Of a stretch of DNA of 64,000 nucleotides, positions 42,867-50,552 are shown in pieces (positions within the stretch are counted from its first letter, which is position 1; the number at the start of each line of letters is the position of its first letter). The DNA is from Jiangella alkaliphila (GTDB lineage Bacteria > Actinomycetota > Actinomycetes > Jiangellales > Jiangellaceae), in assembly GCF_900105925.1 (NCBI RefSeq), contig NZ_LT629791.1, positions 1,674,001 to 1,738,000 of the forward strand, given 5' to 3'. Both the position numbers and the translations under genes were made by a program. Under the pieces are notes generated by a model. The model did no database searches, was not told the origin of the DNA, and saw nothing but the letters and a program-made list of their open reading frames with translations.

Positions 42867-43417
42867 CGACGCCGGTGGAGCAGACGCCGTCGATCGAGGC
42901 CGTCGTCGCGGCAGTCCTGGTGGCGCACCAGCGCAACACCGCGGGCTCGTGCTTGTGCGGCTGGTCCGAGCTCGGCCACTCGCACGCCGGGCACGTGACC
43001 GAGGTCCTGGCGAGCGCGCGCCTGCTCGCCGCGGCGCCGGTGGTGCGCGACGGCTTCACGATCGAGGCGCCGCCGGTCACCCCTGGCGCGCGGCCGAAGG
43101 ACCTCGAGGTCCTGCTGACCCGGGCCGCGCAGGTGGTCCGCCGGCGCGCCGCGAAGGTGTCGTACTGGTACCCAGACGCCCAGATCGACGTGCTCGCCTG
43201 CGTCGTGGTCGAGGGCCGCGACACCGTCGTCGCCAGCGACCTCCACCCTGACCTGGCGTCGTACTGGTCGACGTGGGACCCGGCGACCGCCGTCGCCGTC
43301 GCGGCACTGCTCGAGCACGCCGCCCGGTGCATCCGCCTGGACGGCAAGGTCGGCGACCACCAGCACGCGATCGCGCTGGCCCGCTCGATCATGCGCCGGG
43401 CGGGTGACGCGCCATGA
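42863..43417 (+). CDS. Prophage hypothetical protein
   Basis: A 184-residue protein. The N-terminal third contains SCLCGWSELGHSHAGHV, a possible Cys/His metal site resembling short phage zinc fingers. The rest (VVVEGRDTVVASDLHPDLASYW and following helix) matches no family that I recognise. It is coupled to both neighbours by ATGA overlaps. Confidence 0.6.
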   Translation: MTTPVEQTPSIEAVVAAVLVAHQRNTAGSCLCGWSELGHSHAGHVTEVLASARLLAAAPVVRDGFTIEAPPVTPGARPKDLEVLLTRAAQVVRRRAAKVSYWYPDAQIDVLACVVVEGRDTVVASDLHPDLASYWSTWDPATAVAVAALLEHAARCIRLDGKVGDHQHAIALARSIMRRAGDAP

Positions 43418-43611
43418 CCGAAGAGCAGCTCGCGCGGTGGCGGCAGGCCGAGCTGATCCGCCGCAAGCGGGCCCGACGCGGTGGCCGTCGCCGTGCCGGC
43501 GGGTTCGGCCGCTACCTCGGCATGCAGGTGCTGCCGCCCGCGCTGCCGGCCCGGCCCGCAGCGGCAATCACTCCCCCGGAACAGCCCGATCAGGAAGGCA
43601 CCACACCGTGA
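43414..43611 (+). CDS. Small basic prophage protein
   Basis: A 65-residue protein with an Arg-rich middle (RRKRARRGGRRRAGG) and a Pro-rich tail. It may bind nucleic acid. ATGA-coupled upstream, GTGA-coupled to the ParB-like gene downstream. Confidence 0.5.
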   Translation: MTEEQLARWRQAELIRRKRARRGGRRRAGGFGRYLGMQVLPPALPARPAAAITPPEQPDQEGTTP

Positions 43612-45089
43612 CCAGGACACCGACAACCACCACGCCACCGTGGCAGGCGCGGACCGCGCTGCGCATCAGCGCCGACACCGGGCAGGCCTGGGTCGACCTC
43701 GAACTCATCGCACCGCACGAGGCGAACGTGCGCCGCGAGCTCGGCGACCTCACCGACCTCGTCGCCTCGATCCTCGAGCAGGGCATCATCGAGCCGCTGA
43801 TCGTCGCGCCCCACCCCGACGGTGACCCGGGCTTCGTGGTCGTCGCCGGGCATCGCCGCCTCGCCGCCGCCCAGCAGGCCGTTGAGGCCGAGGTGCCGGT
43901 GATCGTGCGGCCCGACCTCGACACCGAGGCCAAGGTCATCGAGGCGATGCTGACCGAGAACCTGCACCGCGACCAGCTGACCCCGGTGGAGGAGGCCGAC
44001 GGCTACCAGCGGCTCGCCCTGTTCGACTACACGCCGGTCCAGATCGCGAAGAAGGTCGGCCGGTCCGAGACGACGGTGCGGCGCCGACTGCAGCTCGCCG
44101 CGCTGCCCGACGGCGCCCGCGATGCCCTGCACGCCGGCCAGATCACCCTGCACCAAGCCGACGAGATCGCCCAGGTCGTCAAGCCCGACGACGACGAGGC
44201 GGTGAAGCAGCTGACGAAGGCGGTCGGGAAGGGCGACAACGAGCTGAAGCTCGAGCTGGACCGGCTCCGCCGCCGCGCCGAGTTCGAGGGGAGGCTGCAG
44301 GAGCAGATCGACGTGCTCGGCGGCTACGGCGTGGCGACGGTGCTGCGGGTCAGCTCCGGCCAGCGGGCGGAGGGGTGGGAGAGGGGCCGGTTCCTCGGCC
44401 CCGAGATCGACGAGTTCCTCGCCAAGGTCGACGCCGGCGACGAGGAAACGCCTGAGGCGATGATCGTAGAGACCTGGCAGTACAGCACCCCGTACTGGTA
44501 CACGGCGACCCCGACGCCGGCGGAGCCTACGGGTGACGGCACGCCCGCGGTGTCCAGCGACGGCGACGTGCTGCCGGGGCAACGGTCCGTGGACGACGAG
44601 CTCGCTGCGCAGCGCGAGGCGCGCGAGCGTGCCGAGCGCGAGCAGCGCATGGCCGACCTCGAGGCCGCGTCCGAGATCCGCGACGACTGGTTGGAGAAGC
44701 TGCTGACCAAGCGGGTCACGCCGGTCCAGGTCGCGACGATGCTGCGGCAGTGCGTCGCCGACCTCGCTTCGTCGGGGTCGGTCAACGATGAGGATGCAGC
44801 GCTGGCGGGTCTGGACCCTGACGTCGACTGGGGCGACCCGGCGCGGCTGCGCGCGCACGCCGACACGTTGTCCACGCCGGCGCTCGTGCAGCTGCTCTGG
44901 GGCCTGTTCCTGTACCGGCCGTCGCTGATCGGGCCGGGCTCGAACGTGGAGACCCAGGCCGCCTGGTACCTGCCGCGGCTCCAGGAGCTCGGCTACGAGC
45001 TCACCTCGGTCGAGGCCGCCCTGATCGAGCCCATCGTCCCCGACGACCAGACGACCGACGCCGACGCCGGCGAGGACGCCGGCACCTGA
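43608..45089 (+). CDS. ParB/RepB/Spo0J nuclease-domain protein
   Basis: A 493-residue protein. The N-terminal ParB-like domain (about residues 30-125) has IAPHEANVRRELGDLTDLVASI, VVAGHRRLAAAQ (the CTP/nuclease-type GxRR loop) and MLTENLHRDQLTPVEEADGYQRL. It is followed by a KorB-type helix-turn-helix (PVQIAKKVGRSETTVRRRLQLA). The middle is a charged coiled-coil-like stretch and the C-terminal third is unrecognised. In phages such proteins act in partition or as regulators and nucleases. No ParA gene is nearby. A long hairpin element follows directly. Confidence 0.85.
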   Translation: MTRTPTTTTPPWQARTALRISADTGQAWVDLELIAPHEANVRRELGDLTDLVASILEQGIIEPLIVAPHPDGDPGFVVVAGHRRLAAAQQAVEAEVPVIVRPDLDTEAKVIEAMLTENLHRDQLTPVEEADGYQRLALFDYTPVQIAKKVGRSETTVRRRLQLAALPDGARDALHAGQITLHQADEIAQVVKPDDDEAVKQLTKAVGKGDNELKLELDRLRRRAEFEGRLQEQIDVLGGYGVATVLRVSSGQRAEGWERGRFLGPEIDEFLAKVDAGDEETPEAMIVETWQYSTPYWYTATPTPAEPTGDGTPAVSSDGDVLPGQRSVDDELAAQREARERAEREQRMADLEAASEIRDDWLEKLLTKRVTPVQVATMLRQCVADLASSGSVNDEDAALAGLDPDVDWGDPARLRAHADTLSTPALVQLLWGLFLYRPSLIGPGSNVETQAAWYLPRLQELGYELTSVEAALIEPIVPDDQTTDADAGEDAGT

Positions 45090-48542: not shown

Positions 48543-48802
48543 TGGCGGGCACGGAGCTCAGCGAGTACGCCCGTCGACGGGCAGAGGAGAACCACGCGCT
48601 GCGCAAGCTCACCGATGTCCTGGAGCGGACGCGGAAGGCGCTGAGGGGTCTGCCGCGGTCGTGCCCGGTGCATGGCCGGGAGTTCGCCGCCGCCGGGCTG
48701 GAGCCGTGGGGTGAGCCGCGCTGCGAACAGTGCAAGGTGCCGGCCCAGCTGACTCGAATTCTCGGACACCTCGACCACGCCATGGAGGACGCACGATCAT
48801 GA
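48542..48802 (+). CDS. Prophage hypothetical protein with a Cys pair
   Basis: An 86-residue protein that starts with a charged helix (YARRRAEENHALRKLTDVLE) and contains CPVHGREF and CEQCKV, a likely zinc ribbon. ATGA-coupled to the next gene. Function unknown. Confidence 0.55.
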   Translation: MAGTELSEYARRRAEENHALRKLTDVLERTRKALRGLPRSCPVHGREFAAAGLEPWGEPRCEQCKVPAQLTRILGHLDHAMEDARS

Positions 48803-49257
48803 GCACTGACGAGTTCGACCTGGGCACCGTGTTCCACGAGGTGTGGGCCGCGGCTGCCGATCCCGATCCGGGCGTGGTCGCTGCTGCGCTCCTGGCTCGC
48901 ATCCCGAAACGCCATTACGCTGACGCGCTCGCCCAGGCCCTACGCGGTTACACACGGGTGCAGATCGGCGCCCAGCGCCGCCCGGGCCACGGCGGCCCGG
49001 TGTCTCGGAAGGTGTCCGGGATCCGTGAGCAGTACGCGATGGGGTTCCCGCTGTCGGGCGGGTGGGAGACGCCGGACGGGTGGAAGCGGTTGCGCGACTG
49101 CACGCGCGACGATCTGTTGTTCGCTGCGTCCCGTAGGCGGTCGATGGCGGCCGCCAACGTCGCCGTCGCAGAGCGGCTGGAGCAGCTCGCTGCCCTCGTA
49201 CCTGCCGATGGTGTGGTCGCCAGCATCGATCCGGAGGTGCTCGACGCCGCGGCATGA
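48799..49257 (+). CDS. Prophage hypothetical protein
   Basis: A 152-residue protein, helical by composition, with ARIPKRHYADALAQALRGYTR and GWKRLRDCTRDDLLFAASRRR. Similar short proteins are common in actinophage early regions without known role. ATGA-coupled upstream. The non-coding double-hairpin region follows. Confidence 0.55.
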   Translation: MSTDEFDLGTVFHEVWAAAADPDPGVVAAALLARIPKRHYADALAQALRGYTRVQIGAQRRPGHGGPVSRKVSGIREQYAMGFPLSGGWETPDGWKRLRDCTRDDLLFAASRRRSMAAANVAVAERLEQLAALVPADGVVASIDPEVLDAAA

Positions 49258-49331
49258 CCCATGACGACCGGGCGTCGGCCATCTGGGCGTCGCAACCCAA
49301 TGAACGTGCGCCGGCGCCCGGTCCAAGGACT

Positions 49332-49389
49332 CCCCTCGCACCAGCCAGATCGTCGATGCAGCCCAACTTGCAATCGCTGGTGCGAGGGG
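49332..49389 (+). ncRNA. Twin hairpin A (30-nt loop with CCCAACTT)
   Basis: CCCCTCGCACCAGC (49332-49345) pairs perfectly with GCTGGTGCGAGGGG (49376-49389). The loop is exactly 30 nt and contains a small palindrome ATCGTCGAT (49349-49357), then CCCAACTT at loop positions 17-24 (49362-49369). Hairpin B, 68 bp further on, has the same layout with unrelated stem sequence. Confidence 0.6.
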
Positions 49390-49457
49390 GACCACAGGCA
49401 CGGCAGCGGCCACGGCCAGAGCGAAGCCCAGGACAGACACGCTGCTGCCGCTCAACC

Positions 49458-49515
49458 GCTCCCCCGCCGGCCAACGGGATCCCGATACCCAACTTCTCCG
49501 CGCCGGCGGGGGAGC
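49458..49515 (+). ncRNA. Twin hairpin B (30-nt loop with CCCAACTT)
   Basis: GCTCCCCCGCCGGC (49458-49471) pairs perfectly with GCCGGCGGGGGAGC (49502-49515). The loop is exactly 30 nt, with a palindrome CGGGATCCCG (49475-49484) and CCCAACTT at loop positions 17-24 (49488-49495), as in hairpin A. It ends 21 bp before the start of the IS110-domain-like gene. Confidence 0.6.
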
Positions 49516-49536
49516 ACGAACGATCTGGAGACGAGC

Positions 49537-50253
49537 ATGGTTGATCTGGCGGATCGGACGCTGCAGTTGCTGGCGGACGTCCTCGACGATCTGGAACGGA
49601 CCCGGGTGGCCAACGAGGCGCGGTTACGGCAGCTCACCCGCACCGACGCCGACAGCGACGGTTTGGAGCGGGGGTTCGGTCTGGACCTCGCCCACCCGGA
49701 CGTGCAGCGACTCGCCGGGATCGTCGACGCGATCGCCCAGCTGGAGCACCAGGCCACTCTGAACGTGCAGCGTCAGCTGCGGACGCATCCGCTGGGGTCG
49801 TGGGCTGCGGCCCAGAGGGGTGTCGGTGAGAAGCAGGCCGCGCGGCTCCTGGCCGCGGTGGGTGACCCGTACTGGAACGATCTGCATGACCGCCCCCGGA
49901 CCGTAGGTGAGCTGTGGCAGTACTGCGGTCACGGTGACCCGGCCAGGAGCAGGAAGCGCCGCGGCTCACCGATCGAGCACTCGCCGGAGGCGAAGACGCG
50001 TGTGCACCTGGTGGCATTGTCGATGCTCAAGGCCGGCAATCGTGCCGCCTACGACGACCGCCGCGCCGTCACGTTCGACCGGACCCACCGTGAACCGTGT
50101 GTCCGGTGTGGCCCGTCGGGGAAGCCGGCGCCGGCGGGTTCGGAGTGGAGCCTGGGCCACAGGCATGCCGACGCACTCAGGGTGCTGGGCAAGCAGGGCC
50201 TGCTGCTGCCGTTGTGGCTGGCGGCCAGGGAGATCCACGACGTGGGGCCCTGA
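49537..50253 (+). CDS. Helix-hairpin-helix protein resembling the C-terminal domain of IS110 transposases
   Basis: A 238-residue protein. From about residue 85 it reads LGSWAAAQRGVGEKQAARLLAAVGD, then RTVGELWQYCGHG and RKRRGSPIEHSPEAKTRVHLVALSMLKAGN. This follows the order of the Tnp_20 (IS110/IS116/IS902) domain: GVG helix-hairpin-helix, Y-x-G strand, and a basic Gly/Ser turn before a long helix. The IS110 RuvC-like DEDD domain is absent; the N-terminus is a coiled helix instead. A Cys pair (CVRCG) follows. The ATG at 49537 is used, and an open frame continues upstream through the hairpins. Confidence 0.55.
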   Translation: MVDLADRTLQLLADVLDDLERTRVANEARLRQLTRTDADSDGLERGFGLDLAHPDVQRLAGIVDAIAQLEHQATLNVQRQLRTHPLGSWAAAQRGVGEKQAARLLAAVGDPYWNDLHDRPRTVGELWQYCGHGDPARSRKRRGSPIEHSPEAKTRVHLVALSMLKAGNRAAYDDRRAVTFDRTHREPCVRCGPSGKPAPAGSEWSLGHRHADALRVLGKQGLLLPLWLAAREIHDVGP

Positions 50254-50552
50254 TGCCGGGCGCGTGGGGTTCTGGTGGCACCTGGGCGTGGCGGAAGATC
50301 CGCGCGAAGGTGCTCGAGCGTGACGGCTGGGTGTGCCAGCTGTGCGGGGGGCTGATCGACCGCACGCTGCCGTGGGATCCGCTGAGGCCGGATCCTGGCT
50401 ACGGGTCGGTGCACCACACGCGTGGCAAGGAGTTCGGTGACGATCCGGCCCAGCTGGTGGCCGCGCACCTGGGGTGTAACAAGGACGTGGGCAAGCCGAA
50501 TGACGGGGGTGGGGATCCGGACCCGCGCCCGTGGCGAACGGCCCCGGGGTAA
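50253..50552 (+). CDS. HNH endonuclease
   Basis: A 99-residue HNH protein: AWRKIRAKVLERDGWVCQLCGGLID, YGSVHHTRGK and LVAAHLGCNKDVGK give the Cys pair, HH and N/C elements of the fold. Single-domain HNH proteins of this size, close to terminase genes, take part in phage DNA packaging. The ATG overlaps the previous stop. Four CCCGGGG runs lie at its end and just downstream (50543-50596). Confidence 0.82.
   Translation: MPGAWGSGGTWAWRKIRAKVLERDGWVCQLCGGLIDRTLPWDPLRPDPGYGSVHHTRGKEFGDDPAQLVAAHLGCNKDVGKPNDGGGDPDPRPWRTAPG

Follow-up and report, generated by a model that had tools for sequence, protein, structure and literature searches.

What are the regularly built hairpins that precede a small protein gene on the chromosome of Jiangella alkaliphila, and what might the two do together? 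The window that raises this question, a stretch of 64,000 nucleotides (positions 1,674,001 to 1,738,000 of contig NZ_LT629791.1, forward strand), had been described in a first-pass annotation as holding a pair of such hairpins upstream of a gene whose product recalls the IS110 recombinases. We find that the locus is almost certainly a TIGR-TasA system of the stem-loop-array type, residing on an actinobacterial provirus, and we hold the whole explanation, together with the mechanism and role set out below, at a probability of about 0.85. The window locus is taken for a provirus because a virus contig in IMG/VR carries the same TasA protein at 100% identity along with the same hairpins, and because the window lies within a 7.7-Mb contig. 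Genes for a portal, a terminase and a head protease follow downstream of the locus.

The intergenic gap at 49258-49536 holds four hairpin units rather than two, all on the + strand, the units at 49266-49323 and 49401-49450 having been missed before. Unit 1 (49266-49323) pairs 14-bp arms with one mismatch around a 30-nt loop; its two spacers lie at 49282-49290 (A) and 49300-49308 (B), with box D' (49291-49292) and box C' (49297-49299) between them and box D (49309-49310) after spacer B. Unit 2 (49332-49389) has perfect 14-bp arms (49332-49345 and 49376-49389), spacers A and B at 49348-49356 and 49366-49374, and TG as its box D'; unit 4 (49458-49515) likewise has perfect 14-bp arms (49458-49471 and 49502-49515), with spacers at 49474-49482 and 49492-49500. 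Unit 3 (49401-49450) is closed by 10-bp arms that include one G.U pair, and its loop (49411-49440), with spacers at 49413-49421 and 49431-49439, reads CA-N9-CG-N4-CCA-N9-C. This grammar of CA, nine variable nucleotides, CG (TG in unit 2), a 4-nt linker, CCA, nine variable nucleotides and C is common to all four loops, each of which is exactly 30 nt long. As RNA, units 1, 2 and 4 fold better than 200 of 200 dinucleotide shuffles (z -4.45, -6.16 and -5.25), whereas unit 3 does no better than its shuffles (z -0.26) and is counted as a unit because of its loop motif and arms. The two hairpins of the first-pass annotation, with perfect 14-bp stems, 30-nt loops and CCCAACTT at loop positions 17-24, are exactly units 2 and 4; the octamer occurs nowhere else in the window, where 0.30 copies are expected on average and at least two arose in 4 of 100 shuffles. 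An Rfam search up to E 10 returned seven matches, all far under gathering scores.

Is this architecture a property of a family? Relatives were gathered from IMG/VR (14, 15 and 68 loci), from bacterial genomes (8 loci) and from named phages (83 records with tasA matches: Mycobacterium 76, Gordonia 5, Rhodococcus 1, Arthrobacter 1). The main set comprises 76 loci (8 bacterial and 68 from IMG/VR), three of which repeat others; a set of 72 omits these repeats (L055, L085, L110) and L101, a locus that has less than half of its 31-mers in common with any other and carries the partner gene described below and four units with 30-nt loops. The loci are not independent, because phage BPBiebs31 has 11 close relatives among the 72 (L056-L066). 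When perfect stems of at least 10 bp were collected without recourse to any motif from 3.2 kb of sequence per locus (76 loci), a loop length of 30 was found in 215 cases against 1 in shuffled sequence, and lengths of 31-34 in 9 to 15 cases each, so the earlier claim of a loop design beyond chance holds. Units with 30-nt loops, sought in 78 loci by a search that imposed the edge C-CA and the closing G and so preset the conservation of these letters, lie on the tas strand in 423 cases and on the opposite strand in 18. The 389 distinct loops among them consist of nine open positions, C (.89) and G (.96), four loose positions, C (.98), C (.97) and A (.93), nine open positions and C (.91). Selection by the loop motif alone yields 321 distinct units on the tas strand and 10 on the other; the flanks of these units pair at 7.01 of 8 positions, compared with 3.33 (sd 0.07) once arms have been exchanged among units, and the stems are therefore maintained through compensatory change. 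The 264 well-paired units have 201 distinct left arms.

Homologues of the protein have hairpins too, which bears out the earlier assignment of the hairpins to the adjoining gene. Among these homologues the stems change, and what stays constant is the loop motif rather than CCCAACTT: the ACTT of the supposedly constant octamer falls largely in variable spacers and is near random among the 389 distinct loops. The short palindromes proposed as a shared loop feature also fall largely in variable spacers, the actual design being CA...CG....CCA...C. Stem-loop TIGR arrays have been described as possessing two 8-12-nt spacers, box C, box D and variable palindromes that replace edge repeats (PMC12045711), and variable palindromic arms stand in place of edge repeats here as well. 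The first letter of box D covaries between loop and edge (odds ratio 6.0, p 9e-5, over 372 units of which many come from related loci), a covariation of box motifs that is also reported for TIGR arrays (PMC12045711). At least one single-loop unit occurs in 71 of the 72 loci, usually with several in tandem. Spacers A and B have the same odd composition: across all loci about two thirds have A or T at position 1, and about 65-73% have G or C at positions 3 and 6. The idea that codon phase underlies the GC-rich positions 3 and 6 was dropped, because no one frame shows a consistent shortage of stop codons. Half units are tandemly duplicated in an array from Mycobacterium sp. (L042:3795-3940), with about 50 bp repeated twice, a possible trace of array growth.

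The gene that follows the array, tasA (49537-50253, + strand), encodes a solo Nop-domain Tas protein of 238 residues that matches phrog_4285 ('transposase') at E 1.1e-77. A profile built from 16 sequences identified TasR (9mty, E 1e-27) and TasH (21kl, E 3.8e-14) in the PDB, with no other match below E 1 and two further, unrelated ones up to E 10. Consistently, the AlphaFold2 model (pLDDT 91, pTM 0.83) gave ten Foldseek matches at E <= 0.001, all of them TasH or TasR, and VIA-align placed it at Z 15.5-17.8 to TasR/TasH, at 12.7-13.1 to IS621/ISCro4 and at 8.4 to archaeal Nop5 (3pla), the last no higher than unrelated rows. Model residues 5 to 237 align with the Nop parts. The RuvC or HNH nuclease of TasR and TasH has no counterpart in the 238-residue protein, and we class it as TasA because no nuclease family matches.

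Could the locus instead be a reduced IS110 element, its hairpins the remnant of a bridge RNA and its protein a domesticated recombinase half? The fold is indeed that of the RNA-binding half of IS110, the likeness to IS621 and ISCro4 extending over nearly the whole protein, and names point the same way: phrog_4285 is labelled a transposase, and the depositors named the 9mty chain 'Transposase IS116/IS110/IS902 C-terminal domain-containing protein' in an entry entitled TIGR-TasR. The first-pass annotation, which had noted a likeness to the Tnp_20 domain of IS110, was thus right about the fold, but the closer kin are TasR and TasH by both profile and fold, and Pfam Transposase_20 does not match TasA (nothing at E 0.1) and matches 3 of the 16 relatives, at best with E 0.018. 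IS110 entries are absent from the sequence profile search of the PDB, with which kinship nevertheless remains compatible. The part of IS621 to which the model (residues 5-234) aligns is confined to residues 127-314, and the DEDD RuvC-like domain, already reported missing from the sequence, is absent from the model. Bridge RNAs, which the annotation had invoked, carry two loops per RNA, in contrast to the single-loop units found in 71 of 72 loci, usually in tandem. We consider a reduced IS110 element very improbable on these grounds. Slightly less credible still is the notion that the hairpins are DNA sites for recombination or packaging, or transposon ends, rather than RNA guides: variable palindromic arms would suit DNA hairpins just as well, but the orientation of the units is fixed relative to tasA (423 against 18 by loop length, 321 against 10 by motif), box C/D motifs occur in the loop, and TasA folds like the Tas proteins that bind RNA. 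The best reading is an RNA-protein system, and the RNA-binding link to IS110 that had been suggested for it was right in kind.

The TIGR-TasA locus includes a second protein gene. Immediately upstream of the array, at 48799-49257 on the + strand, lies a gene for a 152-residue protein of phrog_4604 (E 3.5e-13), a family of unknown function. By phmmer this partner was found in 29 of the 76 loci, the window's own provirus among them; a profile made from those 29 recovered it in 43 of the 47 held-out loci at E <= 2.7e-16, matched L107 (1.4e-4) and L109 with its repeat L110 (1.5e-3) weakly, missed L105, and matched none of the reversed proteins. An iterated profile locates the partner in 76 of 76 loci, always upstream of tas and on the same strand, at a median of 360 and a maximum of 1469 bases from the tas match (72 loci). 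All aligned members of the family match phrog_4604 (22 of 22), and the gene is also present in six named phages outside the profile (BPBiebs31, prophiFSAT01-1, LonelyBoi, Spooky, Morrissey and Rich; E 2e-18 or better), of which LonelyBoi was found through its partner gene and has tasA. The BPBiebs31 partner, used as query, matched 76 phage records, and tasA matched 83; such partner queries are insensitive, because the window's own partner matches none of the named phages by tblastn. Two of the 393 genomes of this class have phrog_4604, the same two that alone have a strong tasA match: the window's own and G159, which is no independent case since its provirus is that of locus L037. Another 49 genomes have weak phrog_4285 matches (3e-12 or worse), mostly in ORFs about 300-560 codons long, the pattern to be expected of IS110 transposases.

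The predicted fold of the partner (pLDDT 87, pTM 0.50) has no PDB match at E 0.001, a profile search of the PDB gave nothing below E 0.7, and the family has no Pfam family in common; against BFVD there were four matches, two unnamed, one in phage Omega and one in phage Rich, which carries tasA, and locus L097 carries both genes. TIGR systems are generally composed of one protein plus the array (PMC12045711). Nine other window genes were tested in the 76 loci and do not occur beside tas except in the same provirus. An HNH-like gene directly after tasA (50253-50552; phrog_1271, E 1.2e-9) was rejected as a part of the system, since relatives occur in 1 of 76 loci and that one is the same provirus; it is probably a packaging-type HNH. 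A ParB-like gene 4.4 kb before tasA (43404-45089; Pfam ParB_N, E 3e-12) was rejected as well: no relative of it turned up in the other loci, although these extend only about 4 kb upstream and so barely permit the test, and the tasParB association belongs to dual-repeat arrays (PMC12045711).

Guide units are not confined to the intergenic gap. Although the window's tasA contains none, 30 of 72 loci have at least one unit within the tas reading frame, in 27 of them in the loop after ELWxYxG (residues about 118-195) and in the remaining loci further on. Mostly one to three units follow ELWxYxG, and some lie also in the C-terminal tail (L003, L007, L012, L047, L070, L075 and L093 are among the loci with in-frame units); in L003, two units amount to an in-frame insert of about 35 residues relative to the window. 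Of 376 units, 238 separate the partner gene from tas, 64 are embedded in the tas frame and 17 in that of the partner, 35 precede the partner and 22 follow tas; in 64 of the 72 loci the interval from partner to tas holds a unit. Units downstream of tas are seen, for example, at L003:3840, L013:3744 and L045:4718 and 4777. The deposited annotations of LonelyBoi gp46 (L135) and Spooky gp50 (L269) read several guide units as protein, giving about 400 residues, and the true tas start probably lies inside the annotated protein. Units inside the tas coding region are not mentioned in the main text of PMC12045711. Conceivably, the processing of a tas message with embedded guides destroys that message and could thereby limit TasA.

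How do the spacers evolve within this conserved frame? Among 12 loci close to BPBiebs31, whose tasA is on average 97.2% identical over 690 nt, the stems of unit 1 are 98.0% identical, whereas identity drops to 33.3% in spacer A and 38.6% in spacer B; a second unit, found in 11 of the 12, has stems that are 100% identical and spacers that are 42.4% (A) and 31.9% (B) identical. Spacer A TATCTCCGG is retained with three different spacers B in L057, L060 and L063, and the two spacers can therefore turn over separately. Other pairs of loci have retained their spacers: a homologous unit in two diverged loci (L042:3897 and L071:1265) shows two spacer differences in 18 and a stem changed on both sides.

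The last positions of the two spacers are related. A9 and B9 are Watson-Crick complementary in 167 of 372 distinct spacer pairs, with 94.5 expected, or 102.7 (sd 7.7, maximum 132 in 2000 shuffles) when the B spacers are permuted inside each locus. In a 9 by 9 table of positions this cell stands at z 8.6 and the other 80 at 2.6 at most. The signal is present in both halves of the loci (88 against 49.1 and 79 against 46.0 expected) and with one random unit per locus (30.7 of 71 on average, where 31 of 71 has p 6e-4). It varies between loci (p 0.02), is weak where the linker is other than 4 nt (12 of 39, 9.5 expected), is absent from 43 units of bacterial genomes (11 against 10.3 expected), and in 27 units of four later phages is chance-like (9 of 27) and gives no confirmation. 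Within the window, only units 2 and 4 have the complementarity. The pattern suggests that the 3' ends of the two spacers would meet at one site. Both spacers may read this site from opposite strands and have its central base pair in common, a reading that we regard as close to an even bet, if somewhat short of one.

A search for such sites turned up no natural target. The window holds no spacer-pair match at up to 2 mismatches and gaps 0-2, the J. alkaliphila genome no exact match for any of the four units at gaps 0-2 and no 17-bp overlapping site of units 2 and 4 at up to one mismatch. Comparison of all spacer pairs with 0.94 Mb of collected loci gave scattered matches at up to 1 mismatch, and outside the arrays themselves none of the gaps or orientations was prominent. 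Exact scans of IMG/VR, which covered gaps of 0-2 or 0-3, the overlapping geometry having been deduced afterwards, found three stretches for unit 4 and none for unit 2, six for the BPBiebs31 pair that represent one homologous site in related contigs, none for the L061 pair, and 15 for the degenerate L042/L071 pair, with none in six records; we read these exact matches as chance, for the 15 provisionally. A two-mismatch match of the L061 pair in the tail assembly chaperone gene of BPBiebs31 is by estimate within chance and was set aside. Across 27 phage contigs (1.85 Mb), 94 two-mismatch matches fall at a one-base overlap against about 60 elsewhere, an excess that is expected because covarying pairs make a shorter query; otherwise no gap or orientation rises above the rest. 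We infer targeting from the studied relatives because no natural target was found.

How, then, might the system work? The anatomy, the homology, the constraint on stems and boxes, the variability of the spacers and the conservation of the partner are established at the level of sequence, and on its operation we envision the following scenario. The array would be transcribed in the direction of tasA, as in the studied relatives, and a host nuclease would cut between the hairpins. A TasA dimer would then bind each hairpin at its two box C/D pairs, whereupon each spacer would pair with a different strand of a single DNA site, the two 3' ends meeting in the middle. Such a site would span about 17 bp, the central base pair probably being common to both spacers. 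RNA-guided DNA binding by TasA is probable by analogy, and TasA, which has no nuclease, should block or bend its target and not cut it. The phrog_4604 partner would be an effector or an assembly factor. As the most likely role we picture RNA-guided interference between competing phages or other mobile elements, itself a guess that we advance tentatively.

Two alternatives bear on parts of this scenario. The A9-B9 covariation might stem from A9 pairing directly with B9 as RNA once the guide has folded, or from a different constraint, instead of from a target base pair read by both spacers. Judging from the TasR structure (PMC12045711), the pseudo-twofold symmetry of the guide relates A9 to B9, and contact between them thus appears possible; a pair within RNA sits less well with the lack of any excess of G.U (G-T 23 against 27.8 expected, T-G 21 against 20.7) and with complementarity in just 45% of units, when stem positions pair at 7 of 8. 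We take this alternative seriously without favouring it. The array might also be a self-targeting repressor of the phage's own genes, a role for which a TasA without nuclease domain would be suited and with which the position of the module in early regions near Cro or repressor genes (LonelyBoi, Spooky, BPBiebs31) agrees. However, the window contains no match at up to 2 mismatches (gaps 0-2), and a test of the 27 phage contigs (1.85 Mb, three control orientations) at gaps -3 to 5 and up to 1 mismatch gave a single self match, at gap 3, with 0, 1 and 2 in the controls. Because self matches do not exceed controls, self-regulation through near-full complementarity is disfavoured; moreover, near-identical phages carry different spacers, which would not be expected of regulators of conserved genes. 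Self-targeting is in our judgement unlikely.

Taken jointly, the pieces of the preferred TIGR-TasA reading could describe a two-protein TIGR subtype of actinobacteriophages, in which phrog_4604 would be the obligate partner of TasA, a 17-bp site would have its central base pair read twice, guide units in the tasA message would limit TasA, and the separate exchange of spacers A and B would arm phages against each other; that all of this is correct at once is rather doubtful. The natural targets of TIGR systems have been hard to find since most loci are metagenomic, and the function of the nuclease-free TasA is less apparent (PMC12045711). Here the system occurs in cultured phages (83 named records), the majority of which infect Mycobacterium smegmatis and some Gordonia. 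Among them are close relatives with tasA genes that are about 97% identical and spacers that differ, so that deletion, swap and co-infection tests are straightforward. The second protein, present at every locus examined, offers a handle on the action of TasA, a useful one because TasA lacks a nuclease of its own.

How does the locus compare with known systems? With IS110/IS621 it has in common the RNA-binding half, yet it lacks the DEDD domain and has an array of single hairpins in the place of one two-loop bridge RNA. It resembles the box C/D snoRNP protein Nop5 in its box C/D logic and Nop fold, except that the target here is expected to be DNA, not RNA. TasR (9mty) and TasH (21kl, 9vzx, 9w02-9w04) likewise have a Nop domain and dual spacers, and TasR also resembles the present system in its 9-nt spacers and its CCA box C. 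They differ in their own RuvC or HNH nuclease domains, dual-repeat arrays and 36-nt RNAs, and box D is UG in TasR and CG here. TasR uses abutting 9-nt sites, tolerates gaps of 1-2 bp and has no obvious covariation of spacers A and B according to the main text of PMC12045711, in contrast to the A9-B9 covariation described above. The closest counterpart is the TIGR-TasA of a Peromyscus leucopus gut contig (Faure et al., 2025, PMC12045711), which also combines a solo Nop TasA with tandem hairpins and variable palindromic stems. That contig has 13 units in three subarrays and the window four units before the gene; by the main text, the 9-nt spacers in 30-nt loops, the conserved second gene and the in-frame units of many relatives set the present loci apart. 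Beyond PMC12045711 and the review PMC12385481, as far as we consulted them, we found nothing in the literature on TIGR in phages. Stem-loop loci in the supplement of PMC12045711 may have the partner or in-frame features too, and the supplement may include these very phages, because the paper cites a mycobacteriophage review for its tailed-phage loci. Relative to its main text, what the actinobacteriophage loci add is a partner gene in 76 of 76 loci, in-frame guide units in 30 of 72, and the covariation of A9 with B9.
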